Source: Gemmata massiliana
GTDB lineage: Bacteria > Planctomycetota > Planctomycetia > Gemmatales > Gemmataceae
Length of the DNA stretch: 64,000 nt
Direction of reading: 5' to 3'
Assembly: GCF_901538265.1 (NCBI RefSeq)
Contig: NZ_LR593886.1
Location: 372,001 to 436,000, forward strand
Shown: piece after piece, positions 19,312 through 56,316 of the stretch
How positions within the stretch are numbered: position 1 is the stretch's first letter
How the letters are laid out: each line of letters opens with the position of its first letter
Notes under the pieces: generated by a model
Databases searched by the model: none
What the model was told of the DNA's origin: nothing
The model's input: the letters and a program-made list of their open reading frames with translations, nothing else
Program-made: the position numbers and the translations under genes

Positions 19312-20730
19312 TTGCCCGAAGCTCCTATCTCAAACCGGGAACCACCCCGCATCCCGGAGCCGCCCGTGCCCGACGAAATTGCCCGGCTCCGCCGCTGGCA
19401 GGCCGTTACGGTCGTCACGCTGTTCACCGGCTACGCGGGCTATTACGTGTGCCGGTCGAACCTGTCGGTTGCATCCCCGCTGTTGCTCAAAGAGTACGGC
19501 CCGGACGGGCTCACGAAAGCGCACATCGGCGACATCGCGTCCGTGGGCGTGCTGTTCTACGCGATCGGCAAAGCGCTCAACGGGGTTCTCGCCGAGTACC
19601 TCGGGGGCCGGCGCATCTTCTTACTCGGCATGTTCACGTCGGTCGCGTGTACGGTCCTGTTCGCGCTCGCACCCCGCAGCACGGGCGCCCTCGGTGGGTT
19701 GGCGAGCAGTTTCGGGCTCCCGGTCGCGGTGATGCTACCGTTCTTAGTCGTGTGGGCCGCGAACCGGTTCGTGCAGTCGATGGGGTGGGGCGGGCTGGTA
19801 CAGATCACGTCGCGCTGGTTCACCGCGAACCGCATGGCGACCGTGATGGGCGTGCTGACGATGAGTTACCTGCTCGGTGACGCACTCGCGCGCCTGTACC
19901 TCGGTGGGGTCGTGAGTACCGGGGTCGGCTGGCAGGGGGTGTTCTTCGCGGCCGCGGCGATGCTCGGTGCGATCGGCTGCGTGAGCTTTTTCACGCTGAA
20001 GAACCGTCCCTCGATCGTCGGGCTACCGGAACCGCCCCCGCCGCCGGGCAACGTCTACGGTGCCGACGCCGGGTACGGGAAGATTTCGCTGTGGGGGCTG
20101 CTCGGGCCGCTGTTTTCGAGCTTCACGTTCTGGCTCGTGTGCCTGATGAACGTGGGGCTGACGCTCATCCGCGAAACGTTCAACTTGTGGAACCCGACGT
20201 ACCTCAACGAAGTGGTGAAACTGGACGCTTGGGCGGCGGGGGTGGCGAGCCTCGTGTTCCCGCTCGTCGGTGCAGTGGCCGCGCTGTTCGCGGGGTGGCT
20301 CGTGGACCGGCTTAACGGGCGCTACGGTCTGGTCGTCGTGTCGTCACTCGTTGGGCTGGTCGTCACCCTCGGTCTATTTGCGTGGGCACCGCTGGAGGGC
20401 CGGACCTGGGCGGCGCTCGCTCTCATCGGCGCGGTGGCACTGTTCCTGCTCGCACCATACACGTTCTGTTCCGGCGTGCTTGCGGTGAAACTCGGCGGGC
20501 AGCGCGGCGGATCGACCGCGGCTGGGATTATTGACACGGCCGGCTACCTCGGGGCGACGCTCGCCGGGTCCGGCGTCGGCCGTATTTCCCAACACTACGG
20601 CTGGGGTACGGCGTTCGGCGCGCTCGCGGGCGTGGCCGCGCTGACGATGCTCGTCGCCACGGTGTTCGCTCTCCGCAGTTCGCCCGACGCACCTCCTGCA
20701 GAACCTGAAGGCGATGGCAACTACTCCTGA
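19312..20730 (+). CDS. MFS transporter, organophosphate:phosphate antiporter (OPA) type
   Basis: This protein of about 454-472 residues has 12 predicted membrane helices. The first helix region TLFTGYAGYYVCRSNLSVASP fits the OPA family (GlpT, UhpT, UhpC), which exchanges phosphorylated organic compounds for phosphate. Helix 2-3 carries an MFS-type turn (LGGRRIFLLGMFTS). The substrate cannot be told. The listed start is a TTG at 19312; a GTG at 19366 (VPDEIARLRRWQ) is equally possible and would remove a polar Pro-rich leader. Its stop region overlaps the start of the alcohol dehydrogenase gene by 17 bases, so the two are probably co-transcribed and coupled. Confidence 0.85.
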   Translation: MPEAPISNREPPRIPEPPVPDEIARLRRWQAVTVVTLFTGYAGYYVCRSNLSVASPLLLKEYGPDGLTKAHIGDIASVGVLFYAIGKALNGVLAEYLGGRRIFLLGMFTSVACTVLFALAPRSTGALGGLASSFGLPVAVMLPFLVVWAANRFVQSMGWGGLVQITSRWFTANRMATVMGVLTMSYLLGDALARLYLGGVVSTGVGWQGVFFAAAAMLGAIGCVSFFTLKNRPSIVGLPEPPPPPGNVYGADAGYGKISLWGLLGPLFSSFTFWLVCLMNVGLTLIRETFNLWNPTYLNEVVKLDAWAAGVASLVFPLVGAVAALFAGWLVDRLNGRYGLVVVSSLVGLVVTLGLFAWAPLEGRTWAALALIGAVALFLLAPYTFCSGVLAVKLGGQRGGSTAAGIIDTAGYLGATLAGSGVGRISQHYGWGTAFGALAGVAALTMLVATVFALRSSPDAPPAEPEGDGNYS

Positions 20731-21958
20731 GATCCGGGCCGCGGTTTTTGACGGTCCCGGTGCGCCGTTTCGCGTGGAATCGCCGTCGCGCCCGACGTTG
20801 CGGTCGGGCGAGGCGCTGGTCCGCGTGTCGCTGTGTACCGTTTGTGGAAGCGATCTACACACGTTCCTCGGGCGCCGGAAAGAGAAGACACCGTGCGTGC
20901 TCGGCCACGAACCGGTTGGCGTCGTGGAGGAAGTGGCCGGTGACGTCCGCGACGTAGGCGGCGAGCCGGTCCGCGTGGGTGATCGCGTGGTGTGGGCCGT
21001 AGCGGTGTCGTGCGGCGCGTGTTTCTTTTGCACGCGGGGCCTACCCCAAAAGTGCGAATCGCTTCGCAAATACGGGCACGAAGCGATTACCCCACAGTGC
21101 GGCCCCGTCGGCGGACTGTCCACGCACTGTCACTTGCTCCAGGGAACTGCAATCGTAAAAGTGCCCGCGGACCTGCCCGATGTGGTCGCGGCGCCCGCCG
21201 GATGTGCGACGGCCACGATCGCCGCAGCCTTGCGCGTGGGGGGAGCACCTAACCCCCTAACCCCCTTCCCTAAGAAGGAAGGGGGAACAGAACCAAATTC
21301 CGAAGACTCCGCACGGCTTTTTGCTTTAAGCCCCTCTCCGTCCTCCGGCCCGCGAGAAGCTCTGCTGACGAGGCCGGAGAGCAAGGAGGGAGGGGTCGGG
21401 GAGGGGGTGTTTCCGAAGCCCTCCTCCGTCGTCATCTTTGGCCTGGGAATGCTCGGGCTAACGGCGTGTGCGTGGGCCGATGCCCTGGGCATGACCGCGA
21501 TCGCGTGCGACGTGAGCGACGGCCGATTGTCGCAAGCGGCGCGGTTCGGGGCGAGACACCTCGCGAAGCCGGACGCACTCGCGGATCTCGTGAAGTCACT
21601 CACGCAGGGGCGCGGGGCCGACCTCGCGCTCGAATTGAGCGGGGCACCTGATGCCTCACGCACGGCGCTTGATGTGCTTCGCGTCGGCGGGACGGCGGTC
21701 TGGGTCGGCGCGGTGTTTCCAACCCCACCGGTTTCCATCGAGCCGGAAACAATCGTCCGCCGGTGTCTCACCGTGACCGGCATTCACAACTACGCTCCGC
21801 GCGACCTCGCGTCTGCGGTCGAGTTCCTCGCGGCGAACCACACGCGATTCCCGTTCGCGGAACTGGTATCGAAGTCATTTCCCCTGGCCGAAGTGAACGA
21901 GGCATTCCGGTTCGCGGAGGCCGAGCGCCCGGTGCGCGTCGCTGTAGCGTGTGACTGA
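20714..21958 (+). CDS. Zinc-type alcohol dehydrogenase-like protein with repeat insertion
   Basis: This 414-residue medium-chain dehydrogenase is about 55 residues longer than usual. The GroES-like catalytic half shows the zinc ligands (CTVCGSDLHTF, GHEPVGVVEE) and the structural-zinc cysteines (CGACFFCTRGLPQKC). The Rossmann half begins at PSSVVIFGLGMLGL with GxGxxG, followed by DVSDGRL as the NAD-binding acidic strand end. Between them, about residues 178-235, lies a sequence (GAPNPLTPFPKKEGG ... KEGGVGEGVF) that is the in-frame translation of a palindromic DNA repeat. The insertion sits at the domain border before the first Rossmann strand, so activity may persist. It overlaps the transporter gene. 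The substrate is unknown. Confidence 0.85.
   Translation: MATTPEIRAAVFDGPGAPFRVESPSRPTLRSGEALVRVSLCTVCGSDLHTFLGRRKEKTPCVLGHEPVGVVEEVAGDVRDVGGEPVRVGDRVVWAVAVSCGACFFCTRGLPQKCESLRKYGHEAITPQCGPVGGLSTHCHLLQGTAIVKVPADLPDVVAAPAGCATATIAAALRVGGAPNPLTPFPKKEGGTEPNSEDSARLFALSPSPSSGPREALLTRPESKEGGVGEGVFPKPSSVVIFGLGMLGLTACAWADALGMTAIACDVSDGRLSQAARFGARHLAKPDALADLVKSLTQGRGADLALELSGAPDASRTALDVLRVGGTAVWVGAVFPTPPVSIEPETIVRRCLTVTGIHNYAPRDLASAVEFLAANHTRFPFAELVSKSFPLAEVNEAFRFAEAERPVRVAVACD
21246..21415. repeat. Palindromic repeat element inserted in frame in the dehydrogenase gene
   Basis: The left arm CCTAACCCCCTAACCCCC continues into a near-palindrome (CCCCCTTCC / GGAAGGGGG) around a short loop. A spacer is followed by a right arm that ends GGGGTCGGGGAGGGGG. 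The layout is the same as in the two copies at 56091-56316. The translated part reads PNPLTPFPKKEGG. Confidence 0.85.
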
Positions 21959-21967
21959 CGCCGGCGC

Positions 21968-21973
21968 TACAAT
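21968..21973 (+). promoter_or_regulatory. Candidate -10 box (TACAAT) for the TIGR02996 gene
   Basis: TACAAT lies 41 bases upstream of the GTG start at 22014 and directly after the preceding stop codon. No convincing -35 is seen. Confidence 0.3.
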
Positions 21974-22013
21974 TGATCGCTGTTGAACGGAGTTCAGAGC
22001 GGGAAGTGACCGC

Positions 22014-23321
22014 GTGTCGTCCGATCTTCAATCACTCCTGGCCGCGATCGTCGCCGATCCCTCGGACGACATCGCGCGCTTTGTCTACGCGGACTGTTTG
22101 CAGGAGCACGGAAACTCGGCCCGTGCAGAGTTCATTCGCCTCCAGGTCGAAGCCGAGCGCCACCACCCTCATTCCAACACGCGAGCCGACCTGGAACAGC
22201 GAGCGTATACGCTATTTGCGGCGCATTGGGGCGAGTGGTGGGGTGAAGTGTGTACCGCGGTGGGATTGGGAGCGGAGGCGAAACGTTACTCAATCTTGCC
22301 AGGTGGGGCGAGAATCGGTGAACCAATACCATCGGCCGAATGGCTGGACATCCTATTCGATGAACCAGCCGAATCGGGTGAGAAACTCACGCTACCCGAG
22401 ATCACGTTCCGGCGCGGCTTCCCGGAGGCGGTAACGTTCTTCCCATTCGCGCCTGAAAACACCGCAGCTAATAGCCACCTCGCACAGTGGCACCAAGTTT
22501 CACCTCTGGTCGAGTTGGTCGCCGCGCACGGGTGGGTTGAAGGGCGTCAATTTGGTTGGCTCGATGGTTCGTTTCAGCGATCTGTGACTACGCTGACGGC
22601 GGAACACTTCGGGGCCGAAATGTTGGCCCCGGTTCTTCGCTCACCCAATTTGGAGAACGTGGAACGTGCGATCGTCCGGTTCGGTGCCTCGCCGCAAAGG
22701 GCACGATTCAGCGAATTGCGGCATGTGCTCGCGGCATCCTTTGCTCCGCGACTGAAACACTTAGTGGTGCCCTTTTGGAACGATGTGGGTGCGGCGGCGC
22801 TCGGTTCGCCCGACGTGCTTCCGCGGTTAGAGTCTCTCAATGTCACTCTGAACGGCAACAGTGTCACCGCCCTTGCTCGGGGCACGGGCCTCGCGCGCCT
22901 GCGCCACCTGGCAATTCACGGTTGGTCATCGAGTGCTGATCTCAACGCCGCGTGCCGTGAGCCGGTTTGGGCGCAACTCCGTTCGCTCCACCTGGGCTAC
23001 GGGAGATGGGAAACGTCGCTGCACGCACTGGCTGCTGCTGATGGCCTTCGCGAGTTGGAAGAGTGCCAGCTCGCGGGTTTAACGTTCACGCCCGAAATTG
23101 TTCGCGATCTGGTTCGGGCGCCGTTGCTGAAACGGGTGAAACATTTTGCGCTCGTCGACGGTGTTTATCACGACGGACGGGCACTTCTGCCGCTTGTCGA
23201 TATCGTCGATCCGGCGCGAATCGAGACGTTTGCGGTTCGGATGCGGTACTTCCCGGAGCGCGCGGCGAACGCTCTTCGCGCGAAATTCGGTGATCGCGTG
23301 CGATTCCTGTCAACTGATTAG
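22014..23321 (+). CDS. TIGR02996 repeat-companion domain protein
   Basis: This 435-residue protein begins with the TIGR02996 domain (about residues 3-50: LLAAIVADPSDDIARFVYAD, then QEHGNSARAEFIRLQVE), a module known mainly from Gemmata-type planctomycetes, usually next to leucine-rich-like repeats. Residues 200-410 contain irregular LRR-like segments such as LESLNVTLNGNSV, LRHLAIHG, LRSLHLGYG and LEECQLAGLTF. The start is GTG with a GGGAAGTG upstream. The function of the family is not known. Leucine-rich repeats suggest protein binding. Confidence 0.85.
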   Translation: MSSDLQSLLAAIVADPSDDIARFVYADCLQEHGNSARAEFIRLQVEAERHHPHSNTRADLEQRAYTLFAAHWGEWWGEVCTAVGLGAEAKRYSILPGGARIGEPIPSAEWLDILFDEPAESGEKLTLPEITFRRGFPEAVTFFPFAPENTAANSHLAQWHQVSPLVELVAAHGWVEGRQFGWLDGSFQRSVTTLTAEHFGAEMLAPVLRSPNLENVERAIVRFGASPQRARFSELRHVLAASFAPRLKHLVVPFWNDVGAAALGSPDVLPRLESLNVTLNGNSVTALARGTGLARLRHLAIHGWSSSADLNAACREPVWAQLRSLHLGYGRWETSLHALAAADGLRELEECQLAGLTFTPEIVRDLVRAPLLKRVKHFALVDGVYHDGRALLPLVDIVDPARIETFAVRMRYFPERAANALRAKFGDRVRFLSTD

Positions 23322-51649: not shown

Positions 51650-52525
51650 TTACGCGGCTCGCGCAACCGCCGTCGCGTTCGCGGGTGCTGTGACCGGCAC
51701 CGGGTGACCGCTCAGGCGCGACAAAACGTCCGTTACCTGGAACGGATTGAGCGTCTGAATGACTTCCGATTCGACTGACATTTCGGGGAATCGAGGTTCC
51801 ACATCCAACGCGGGTCGCACGGTCGCCGGTCCGACCAGCACGACGCGCTCGCCCGCGACACGCGGAATTGCAGCGAGCGCCTGCGTCGGCCAGAGCCAGT
51901 GTTCGCACCCGGCCAGTCCGACCGGCAACGTGCCATCGGGTAACAGGGCCGCGGGCTTGAACATCTGGAAACCTAGCTTTTCTCCCCTTCCCTTTAGGGA
52001 GGGGGTTGAGGGGTAGGTCAGCCCCGTTTCCGCGAGTAAGCGGTGCAGTTGTGCAATTCCGGCCGCCCCGCGAACGTGCAGGCGCACGCCTGTGCGCTCG
52101 TTCGGTGCAACGACGAGGAACACTTCGTCGTCCGGCACTGTGAGTAGGTCCGCAAGGTCGTTCGCGGCGGCGGCGTGGGGTGCCATCGCGAGCGCGGCGG
52201 CTTTTAGGCCGTCGAGCGCTCGCGCGAGCCGCCGAACTTCCACGTGTGCCAACAGCGCCGGCAGTTCGGCGGCGATGAGGGCCGTGAGTTCGGCGAAGCG
52301 GTCCGGTTCGGCGGAGCGCACGGCTTCGAGTTCGGCCTGGCGCTTCGCGTCGAAGAAGAACACGGCCGGCTCGTTCCATCGGGCCGGCCGGAGTTGCTTC
52401 GCGGCGCGTATCAGTGCCTCACGCAGAACGAGAAGGCGCGGGCGCGCGGCAAACGCCGGATCGCCCGTGTCTGGCAACGCGACGGGGGGCACCCCCGCAC
52501 GGTAGTCGGAGAGATTAGCGGACAT
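51650..52525 (-). CDS. Hypothetical protein paired with the TagJ-like gene
   Basis: This 291-residue cytoplasmic protein is mostly Ala/Arg/Leu-rich helices in its first 150 residues, then mixed beta strands (DDEVFLVVAPNERTGVRLHV). AAGGAGGA lies ahead of the ATG at 52525 and supports the start. At about residues 170-185 the sequence reads TYPSTPSLKGRGEKLG, which is the in-frame translation of a palindromic repeat arm also found elsewhere in the window. The gap to the TagJ-like gene is 17 bases, so co-transcription is likely. No family is recognised. Confidence 0.7.
   Translation of the reverse strand: MSANLSDYRAGVPPVALPDTGDPAFAARPRLLVLREALIRAAKQLRPARWNEPAVFFFDAKRQAELEAVRSAEPDRFAELTALIAAELPALLAHVEVRRLARALDGLKAAALAMAPHAAAANDLADLLTVPDDEVFLVVAPNERTGVRLHVRGAAGIAQLHRLLAETGLTYPSTPSLKGRGEKLGFQMFKPAALLPDGTLPVGLAGCEHWLWPTQALAAIPRVAGERVVLVGPATVRPALDVEPRFPEMSVESEVIQTLNPFQVTDVLSRLSGHPVPVTAPANATAVARAA
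51974..52020. repeat. Palindromic repeat arm inside the TagJ-partner gene
   Basis: CTTTTCTCCCCTTCCCTTTAG followed by GGAGGGGGTTGAGGGGTAGG is the single-arm form of the repeat at 56091-56316. It is read in frame on the minus strand. Confidence 0.75.
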
Positions 52526-52776
52526 ACGGCGCGTCCTCCTTGACGGGCGCGCCGCATTAAACGCGAGAGTCGGAAATGATTTCAAGTGGAACCCGGGAAA
52601 CGTCTAGCGCTCATCAAATGGAAGCGCCCGATATGAACTTCCCATTTTGCGCGGTCCACCACAAACACCACACAGATTGGTCCGATAATAGCGAGCGGTG
52701 AGCGCCGTGGCCCGTTGCCCACAAGCGACACCGCCGAGTAATTGGTCCTTGACGGCTTCCAGGCGACTCCAGAGGG

Positions 52777-56063: not shown

Positions 56064-56090
56064 GCGTGAACCGTAAAGGGTGCCGAAGAA

Positions 56091-56316
56091 CCTAACCCCC
56101 CGACCCCCTTCCCTGAAAAGGAAGGGGGAGAAAAGCAGAAGATAAAGCCAACTGCGTTCCAGCCACCGGTATTAAGCCCCGCCCTTTTAGGGGAGGGGTT
56201 GGGGAGGGGTTACAGCCACAACCTAACCCCCCGACTTCCTTCCCTGAAAAGGAAGGGGGAGAAAGCAGAAGGCCGGACTTAGCCCCGCCCTTTTAGGGGA
56301 GGGGTTGGGGAGAGGT
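56091..56316. repeat. Two tandem copies of a composite palindromic repeat
   Basis: Copy 1 (56091-56211) and copy 2 (56222-56316) each start CCTAACCCCCCGAC and contain the hairpin CCTTCCCTGAAAAGGAAGG followed by GGGAG. After a spacer they end AGCCCCGCCCTTTTAGGGG followed by AGGGGTTGGGGAG. The two differ mainly in spacer length. The ends are roughly inverted relative to each other. They lie between the ABC-F and inositol-monophosphatase-like genes. Confidence 0.88.

Follow-up and report, generated by a model that had tools for sequence, protein, structure and literature searches.

A dispersed palindromic repeat read in frame within an alcohol dehydrogenase of Gemmata massiliana, and protein loops filled by unalignable palindromes across the genus

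The question raised by this locus is how an enzyme of Gemmata massiliana came to carry a long extra segment between its two domains and whether the DNA beneath that segment is a copy of a mobile repeat. In the window, by which we mean the whole stretch of 64,000 nucleotides that was analyzed (contig NZ_LR593886.1, positions 372,001 to 436,000, forward strand), the reading frame at 20714 to 21958 (+) was open throughout upon translation, and its product, the host of the captured repeat, was a zinc-dependent alcohol dehydrogenase of 414 amino acids.

The extra segment of the dehydrogenase and the repeat that underlies it

Pfam placed an ADH_N domain at residues 31 to 151 of the dehydrogenase and an ADH_zinc_N domain at residues 247 to 373, and the protein scored 441 bits against TIGR03366, the model for a phosphonate-catabolism-associated dehydrogenase (cut-off, 328.1). 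The linker from R174 to V239 was 192 nt long, compared to the 27 nt (9 residues) usual outside the genus. The surplus of 165 nt, or 55 codons and thus a multiple of three, lay between the catalytic and coenzyme domains and coincided with repeat DNA at 21246 to 21409 (+), the open phase of which reads PNPLTPFPKKEGGTEP...KEGGVGEGV. The sequence-only reading of this locus had proposed about 55 extra residues between the catalytic and Rossmann halves, with the frame kept on both sides; the linker lengths bore out the first point, and the second was upheld by the open frame and by two halves that are both strong family matches.

In the solved homologue 1rjw, 4 residues stand where the G. massiliana dehydrogenase has 59. 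In an AlphaFold2 model of the latter (mean pLDDT, 82; pTM, 0.82), residues 183 to 233 formed the sole stretch of at least three residues with a pLDDT below 50, and the insert is predicted to be disordered. When the gene of G. massiliana (genome G000) was compared with that of genome G012, dN/dS was 0.027/0.636 for the first domain, 0.028/0.366 for the second domain, and 0.192/0.115 over the 35 aligned codons of the insert. Comparison of the domains with four further orthologues gave dN values of 0.094 to 0.156 and dS values of 0.889 to 1.619. As judged by these substitution rates, the enzyme domains are under constraint, and the insert is unconstrained and drifting.

The repeat, designated family A, is an element of about 125 nt that consists of AACCTAACCCCC, a hairpin, a variable spacer, a second hairpin, and GGGGTTGGGGAGGGGTT. 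The left hairpin of the captured element, CCCCCTTCCCTAAGAAGGAAGGGGG, lies at 21261 to 21285 (+) (G000:C1:393261-393285). Two further copies lie between genes, at 56089 to 56211 (+), with a genome match at 428104, and at 56220 to 56316 (+), adjoining the first. Identity to a family A consensus that we composed was 82% over 21247 to 21341, 74% over 56089 to 56211, and 69% over 56220 to 56316. The proposal that the captured and intergenic copies share one layout therefore held for the alignment to family A but not for the right-hand hairpin of the captured copy, which has an additional palindrome of about 42 nt (unit E) nested in its tip at 21343 to 21382 (+), with 95% identity to that unit. Unit E had no match at either intergenic copy (56089 to 56211 and 56220 to 56316). 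Across the loci and the window searched, it was found in 9 distinct places, in or beside family A copies; the loci at which it is nested in or beside family A hairpins include the window copy at 21343 to 21382 and L187, L198, L202, L216, L223, L250, and L252. From its placement, it looks as if hairpin tips are insertion targets.

Half of a second, related repeat, family B, lies at 51984 to 52018 (-), where it is read in frame as LTYPSTPSLKGRGEK within the reading frame 51650 to 52585 (-) (311 amino acids). This frame, the second in the window to carry an in-frame repeat, had no Pfam match and is a candidate gene. As judged by eye, family B is a near-perfect double hairpin, family A has a similar layout, and the ends are often GAAGAACCTA ... 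GGTTCTTC.

Taken alone, the palindromic character of the dehydrogenase copy is weak. When its 170 nt were folded as single-stranded DNA, the z score was -2.1 and 3 of 200 shuffles folded equally well; its longest stem, of 9, did not exceed those of 100 shuffles. The dehydrogenase copy is counted as a hairpin repeat because of its family, so the earlier description of a palindromic element stood for a dispersed hairpin family, with 72 matches against none in the control, but was poorly borne out by the single copy.

Family A in the genome of G. massiliana

A search of the 10.1-Mb genome with the 25-nt left hairpin, allowing up to 3 mismatches, returned 72 matches (34 forward and 38 reverse), the captured copy among them, and the reversed control hairpin returned none from the same genome. 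The dispersal of family A thus exceeds chance, and the number of matches is a lower limit, as the intergenic copy at 56220 escapes the search. All 72 copies were fetched with about 3 kb on each side, and their flanks were scored by codon usage, with the score trained on reading frames of the window. In 59 of the 72 cases, the copy was spanned by an open frame that extended 150 nt or more beyond it in both directions, and in 52 of the 72 it was also in the strand and phase of this open frame that the two flanks had their highest codon-usage score. The same test was passed by 1464 of 3000 random points in the window without insertion, by 342 of 2000 random in-silico insertions with a length that was a multiple of three (at most 17%), and by 16 of 2000 or 12 of 2000 such insertions of other lengths. 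Family A was thereby shown, as judged by open frames and codon usage, to take an in-frame position in dozens of genes.

Family A has two main reading phases, of which one is sense and the other antisense. Since these main phases are the stop-free phases, phase by itself is a filter and not a sign of targeting. The length from the hairpin to the right end was 1 modulo 3 in 51 of the 58 copies measured, and the proportions were alike in the in-frame copies (41 of 46) and the other copies (10 of 12). Length is therefore no proof of selection, and an argument for frame preservation from length classes was dropped.

We submitted 50 of the spanning frames (59 in all), along with the dehydrogenase, to Pfam, and 5 of the 50 had no match. 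The hosts identified included UvrA, SelB, RecO, RecD2, RNase R, RsmB, an SMC hinge protein, PDH-E2, MoeA, CobW, QueG, UbiD, AcrB, and ParA-like, aldehyde dehydrogenase, carboxyltransferase, and chalcone synthase-like proteins, together with three PSD1 proteins. To three other hosts we gave names ourselves, namely, PcnB (poly(A) polymerase-type), ModF (two-domain ABC), and TilS (a PP-loop protein). Many of the hosts belong to housekeeping families, and solved homologues of RNase R and of chalcone synthase or polyketide synthase are without the insert. At G000:C1:8420926-8439343 (L238 to L240), FabA-like and ketoacyl-synthase frames, apparently of one cluster, carry four in-frame copies of family A.

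We considered whether the segment might be spliced, bypassed, or intein-like and hence absent from the protein. Hairpins in a message could in principle be bypassed, but Pfam matched the dehydrogenase to dehydrogenase-type families only, with no intein splicing domain, and no Rfam family reached the gathering threshold within 20600 to 22100. Moreover, the open frame and matching phase of 52 of the 72 copies would be needless under skipping, and we hold this explanation to be very improbable. A structured RNA family at the locus was likewise set aside on the Rfam result.

The initial expectation that the genome would hold further copies, some of them in genes, was thus exceeded, with at least 72 copies and 52 of them in frame within genes; the observation was confirmed and proved larger than the sequence-only reading had supposed, and the interpretation given there is supported. 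Our main reading, to which we assign a probability of roughly 85% from sequence comparison, is that a dispersed repeat able to form hairpins lodged a copy of itself in the interdomain linker, where it constitutes the extra segment, and that such copies are kept where they are tolerated.

Linkers and loops across the genus

Outside the genus, the dehydrogenase linker was uniformly short. Of 80 loci, 45 were read, comprising 39 readable loci from outside the genus, 5 genus members, and 1 genus locus cut by a contig end. All 39 non-genus linkers measured 21 to 36 nt (35 of 27 nt, 3 of 36 nt, and 1 of 21 nt), in agreement with the prediction that relatives lack the segment, and in no homologue examined was the peptide found without the repeat.

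Within the genus, a dehydrogenase match at 1e-40 was present in 15 of 19 genomes, 13 of which had close orthologues (at least 71% identity). The site was readable in 12 of these 13, as the G006 sequence ends before it, and the linker was filled with repeat in 10 of the 12. CCC/GGG hairpin repeats occupied the linkers of G000, G012, G009, G001, G007, G018, G002, and G016, and two other kinds of palindrome, neither of which could be aligned with family A, occupied those of G003 and G014; by BLAST alignment, the ten filled linkers fell into four groups. Stems longer than those of 100 shuffles were found in 7 of the 10 filled linkers and in none of 11 short linkers. The three without such stems were the family A linkers of G000, G012, and G009, which count as repeat filled by sequence only.

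The G003 palindrome had 82 matches in its own genome (both strands counted, only 40 candidates scored) and matched 15 further genomes of the genus, among them G000, more weakly. The G014 palindrome, counted in the same way, had 80 matches in G014 and none in G000, G009, G002, or G012. Dispersal of the G002 insert was weak, with 7 matches in G002 over both strands, the query itself included. The close orthologues of G011 and G017 had 39-nt linkers without a palindrome, and families A, C, and D were all missing from these two genomes. Family A had matches in 12 of the 19 genus genomes. One distant homologue, that of G005 (52% identity), had a 27-nt linker despite 60 family A copies in its genome, which indicates that genomic repeats do not always fill the linker; that of G013 (54%) also had a 27-nt linker.

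Among the ten filled dehydrogenases, those of G009 and G016 had a reading frame that was interrupted at the insert. Such breaks would be expected if the locus were an artifact, that is, a pseudogene or a chance open frame over an intergenic repeat. However, both domains are strong family matches, dN/dS is low against five orthologues, and the linker is in frame in the other 8 of the 10 filled genes; of the explanations considered here, an artifact appears to be the least probable. In the G009 draft, frame breaks lay inside GC-rich repeats in several genes (L256, L268, L280, L285, L287, and L036). Because several G009 genes break inside elements, the break in the G009 dehydrogenase was not taken as gene loss; sequencing error in the repeats is possible, and the breaks may be false pseudogenes.

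The comparison was extended to other host genes, 16 of which were located in G009, G012, and G002 and eight of these in eight more genomes; the eight-gene comparison starts from sites that are filled in G000. The TilS loop was 15 nt in both outgroups (G026 and G019) and 0 to 361 nt in the genus, the RNase R loop was 9 and -3 nt in the same outgroups and 36 to 141 nt in the genus, and the RsmB loop was 0 nt in outgroup G026. Outgroup linkers were not short for PDH-E2 (156 and 111 nt), ModF (84 and 48 nt), or CT_AB (63 nt), and no outgroup value was obtained for CobW and SMC. A stem longer than those of all 20 shuffles was present in 56 of 76 gene-by-genome cells of the genus (71 testable), or 51 of 68 (63 testable) with G000 excluded, and in none of the 10 outgroup cells (5 testable). 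No significant stem was found in 3 of the 8 loops of G000 or in 5 of the 8 loops of G002. In the protein anchors on either side of these loops, 155 alignments covering 13,756 residues showed only 2 gaps of at least 8 residues.

With the dehydrogenase included, 8 of 9 genes had at least two mutually unalignable groups of loops containing a significant stem, the exception being CT_AB with one, although the failure of short GC-rich repeats to align by BLAST does not prove separate origin. When the trio of G000, G009, and G012 was excluded, loops of different genes within one genome were similar in 50 of 156 pairs (32%), compared to 14 of 125 pairs (11%) for loops of the same gene between genomes, and none of 2000 permutations of the genome labels reached this level. 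With all genomes included, the counts were 141 of 264 same-genome pairs versus 84 of 305 same-gene pairs. These figures indicated that the sequence of a loop depends more on its genome than on its gene. Likeness within a genome was low in G003 (0 of 21 pairs), G013 (1 of 21), and G014 (2 of 21), which may reflect many families per genome.

These results bear on how a loop came to hold different palindromes in different species. One possibility is a single ancestral insertion in each loop, followed by exchange of its core through ectopic recombination or gene conversion between copies. The similar ends of families A and B, the tendency of loops to track the genome more than the gene, and the different cores found at the same place in the UvrA loop of G009 and in the CobW loops of G000, G009, and G012 would all suit such exchange. 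It is harder to reconcile with the palindromes of the G003 and G014 dehydrogenases and with several of those in ModF, TilS, and RNase R, which are unalignable and so have no shared arms, with the unalignable stem-bearing groups in 8 of 9 genes, and with the empty loops of RsmB in G003 and G014 and of TilS in G001. We therefore regard a single insertion with later exchange as possible but doubtful. A further possibility, that the hairpins are selected as mRNA or DNA structure (for example, for a translation pause during folding) or as a flexible linker, so that any palindrome suffices, would account for how often a given loop holds palindromes that cannot be aligned with one another and for the many hosts from housekeeping families. 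Yet a significant stem is missing from 5 of the 8 loops of G002, the dehydrogenases of G011 and G017 have no palindrome, no amino acid constraint was seen on the insert between G000 and G012, and tolerance alone accounts for the sites. Selection for structure is thus an unlikely explanation. On balance, we lean toward the view that a limited number of loops in housekeeping proteins serve as lasting docking sites where successive unrelated palindrome families overwrite one another, the content of a loop being set by the current repeats of its genome and not by the descent of the gene.

Putative mode of spread and comparison with known systems

The proposal that the element is a small mobile repeat fared well with respect to dispersal (at least 72 copies) but could be tied to no known enzyme, and the case for mobility is accordingly an argument from dispersal. 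A search for the Y1 (RAYT-type) transposase gave 0 matches in G000, and the control turned up in 5 of the 14 named genomes; mobilization of family A by a RAYT in G000 was therefore set aside. Across the genus, 16 of 19 genomes had a Y1 match, the exceptions being G000, G011, and G017. That G011 and G017 lack Y1 and also have close orthologues without the dehydrogenase palindrome is a suggestive link, but one broken by G000. The 20 Y1 loci that were inspected in other genus members were not flanked by loop families; at one of them, a loop palindrome was matched over 30 nt at a distance of about 1.1 kb from the Y1 gene. Several Y1 genes (e.g., L402, L407, and L411) had inverted repeats of their own nearby, which were unmatched by the loop repeats tested. 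Neither a target-site duplication nor a recent empty site was shown, and no empty allele was close enough.

Under the main reading, a family A copy of about 125 nt, with the nested palindrome of about 42 nt in the tip of one hairpin, would have come into the interdomain linker of the dehydrogenase, where its survival would be owed to the two open phases of the repeat, to an added length divisible by three, and to the tolerance of the linker for a long, floppy segment. More broadly, repeats would insert widely by a mobile process, genic copies out of frame would be lost, and tolerant loops would become lasting docking sites into which, beside which, or in place of whose contents later families may insert. 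Such a process would act as a ratchet in that a filled loop would tolerate further insertion, nesting, and replacement, so that the loops of a lineage would end up mirroring the repeats it carries. Both the 42-nt unit nested in a hairpin tip and the neighboring A and B elements fit this ratchet. Small DNA repeats thus seem, from the sequences compared, to be a continuing source of new protein segments at a recurring set of tolerated sites.

The genus is offered as a free-living system in which protein segments made by repeats can be tracked in many genes and species together. It becomes testable which loops tolerate random insertions, how fast their contents turn over, and whether loops ever gain a use. 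There is also a warning for annotation, as in these proteins such proline- and glycine-rich loops probably derive from repeats and should not be taken as conserved features. A literature search, of which subscription papers were mostly outside the scope, gave no report of such inserts in Gemmata. In the accessible portion of the G. massiliana genome paper, "palindromic" is used for CRISPR. A table in PMC12985086 of genomes that have regions with an enrichment of reverse-complement triplets includes Gemmata obscuriglobus; the examined parts of that paper hold no account of inserted repeats.

For known systems, the comparison draws on excerpts of the papers cited. Rickettsia palindromic elements (RPEs) are described as dispersed palindromic repeats that lie in frame, in an open phase, in unrelated and apparently functional genes (PMC10969869, PMC3733652), and nearly half of the RPE copies of R. 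conorii are in genes, according to a review (PMC10969869 / PMC3733652). By this description, family A is like RPEs in being dispersed, in frame in unrelated genes, and read in a stop-free phase. Unlike RPEs, it resides in a free-living, GC-rich (64%) planctomycete with 52 of 72 copies genic, and Gemmata loops hold mutually unalignable palindromes at one site in different species. Intragenic GTAG and CGTC REPs of several bacteria (e.g., Opitutus terrae and R. conorii) are reported within open reading frames of repair- and RNA-related genes, uvrA included, and two Xanthomonas species are reported to have different REPs at about the same recB site; most REPs are said to be intergenic, however, and hits in other genes are said to lie at different sites (PMC3733652). 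In this the Gemmata loops differ, with 8 of 9 genes holding two or more unalignable palindrome groups in one loop.

The apparent layout of families A and B as judged by eye, in which a spacer lies between two hairpin units of inverted orientation, and the high copy number recall REPIN/RAYT systems, from which Gemmata departs in having no Y1 match in G000 and, in other genus members, 20 Y1 genes not flanked by loop families. MITEs, for which in-frame fusions are known (PMC10969869), are similar to family A in being short and dispersed, with ends that in family A appear inverted by eye, but no target duplication was identified for family A. In the mitochondria of Nematomorpha, inverted repeats are described in working genes, with both arms encoding conserved protein (PMC6649704), whereas the Gemmata palindrome is, by comparison with that description, an added loop without constraint. 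Coding palindromes are already known from Rickettsia, what looks new is that unalignable families repeatedly use the same loop, and the Gemmata case is set apart by its scale, its free-living host, and the repeated use of shared loops.
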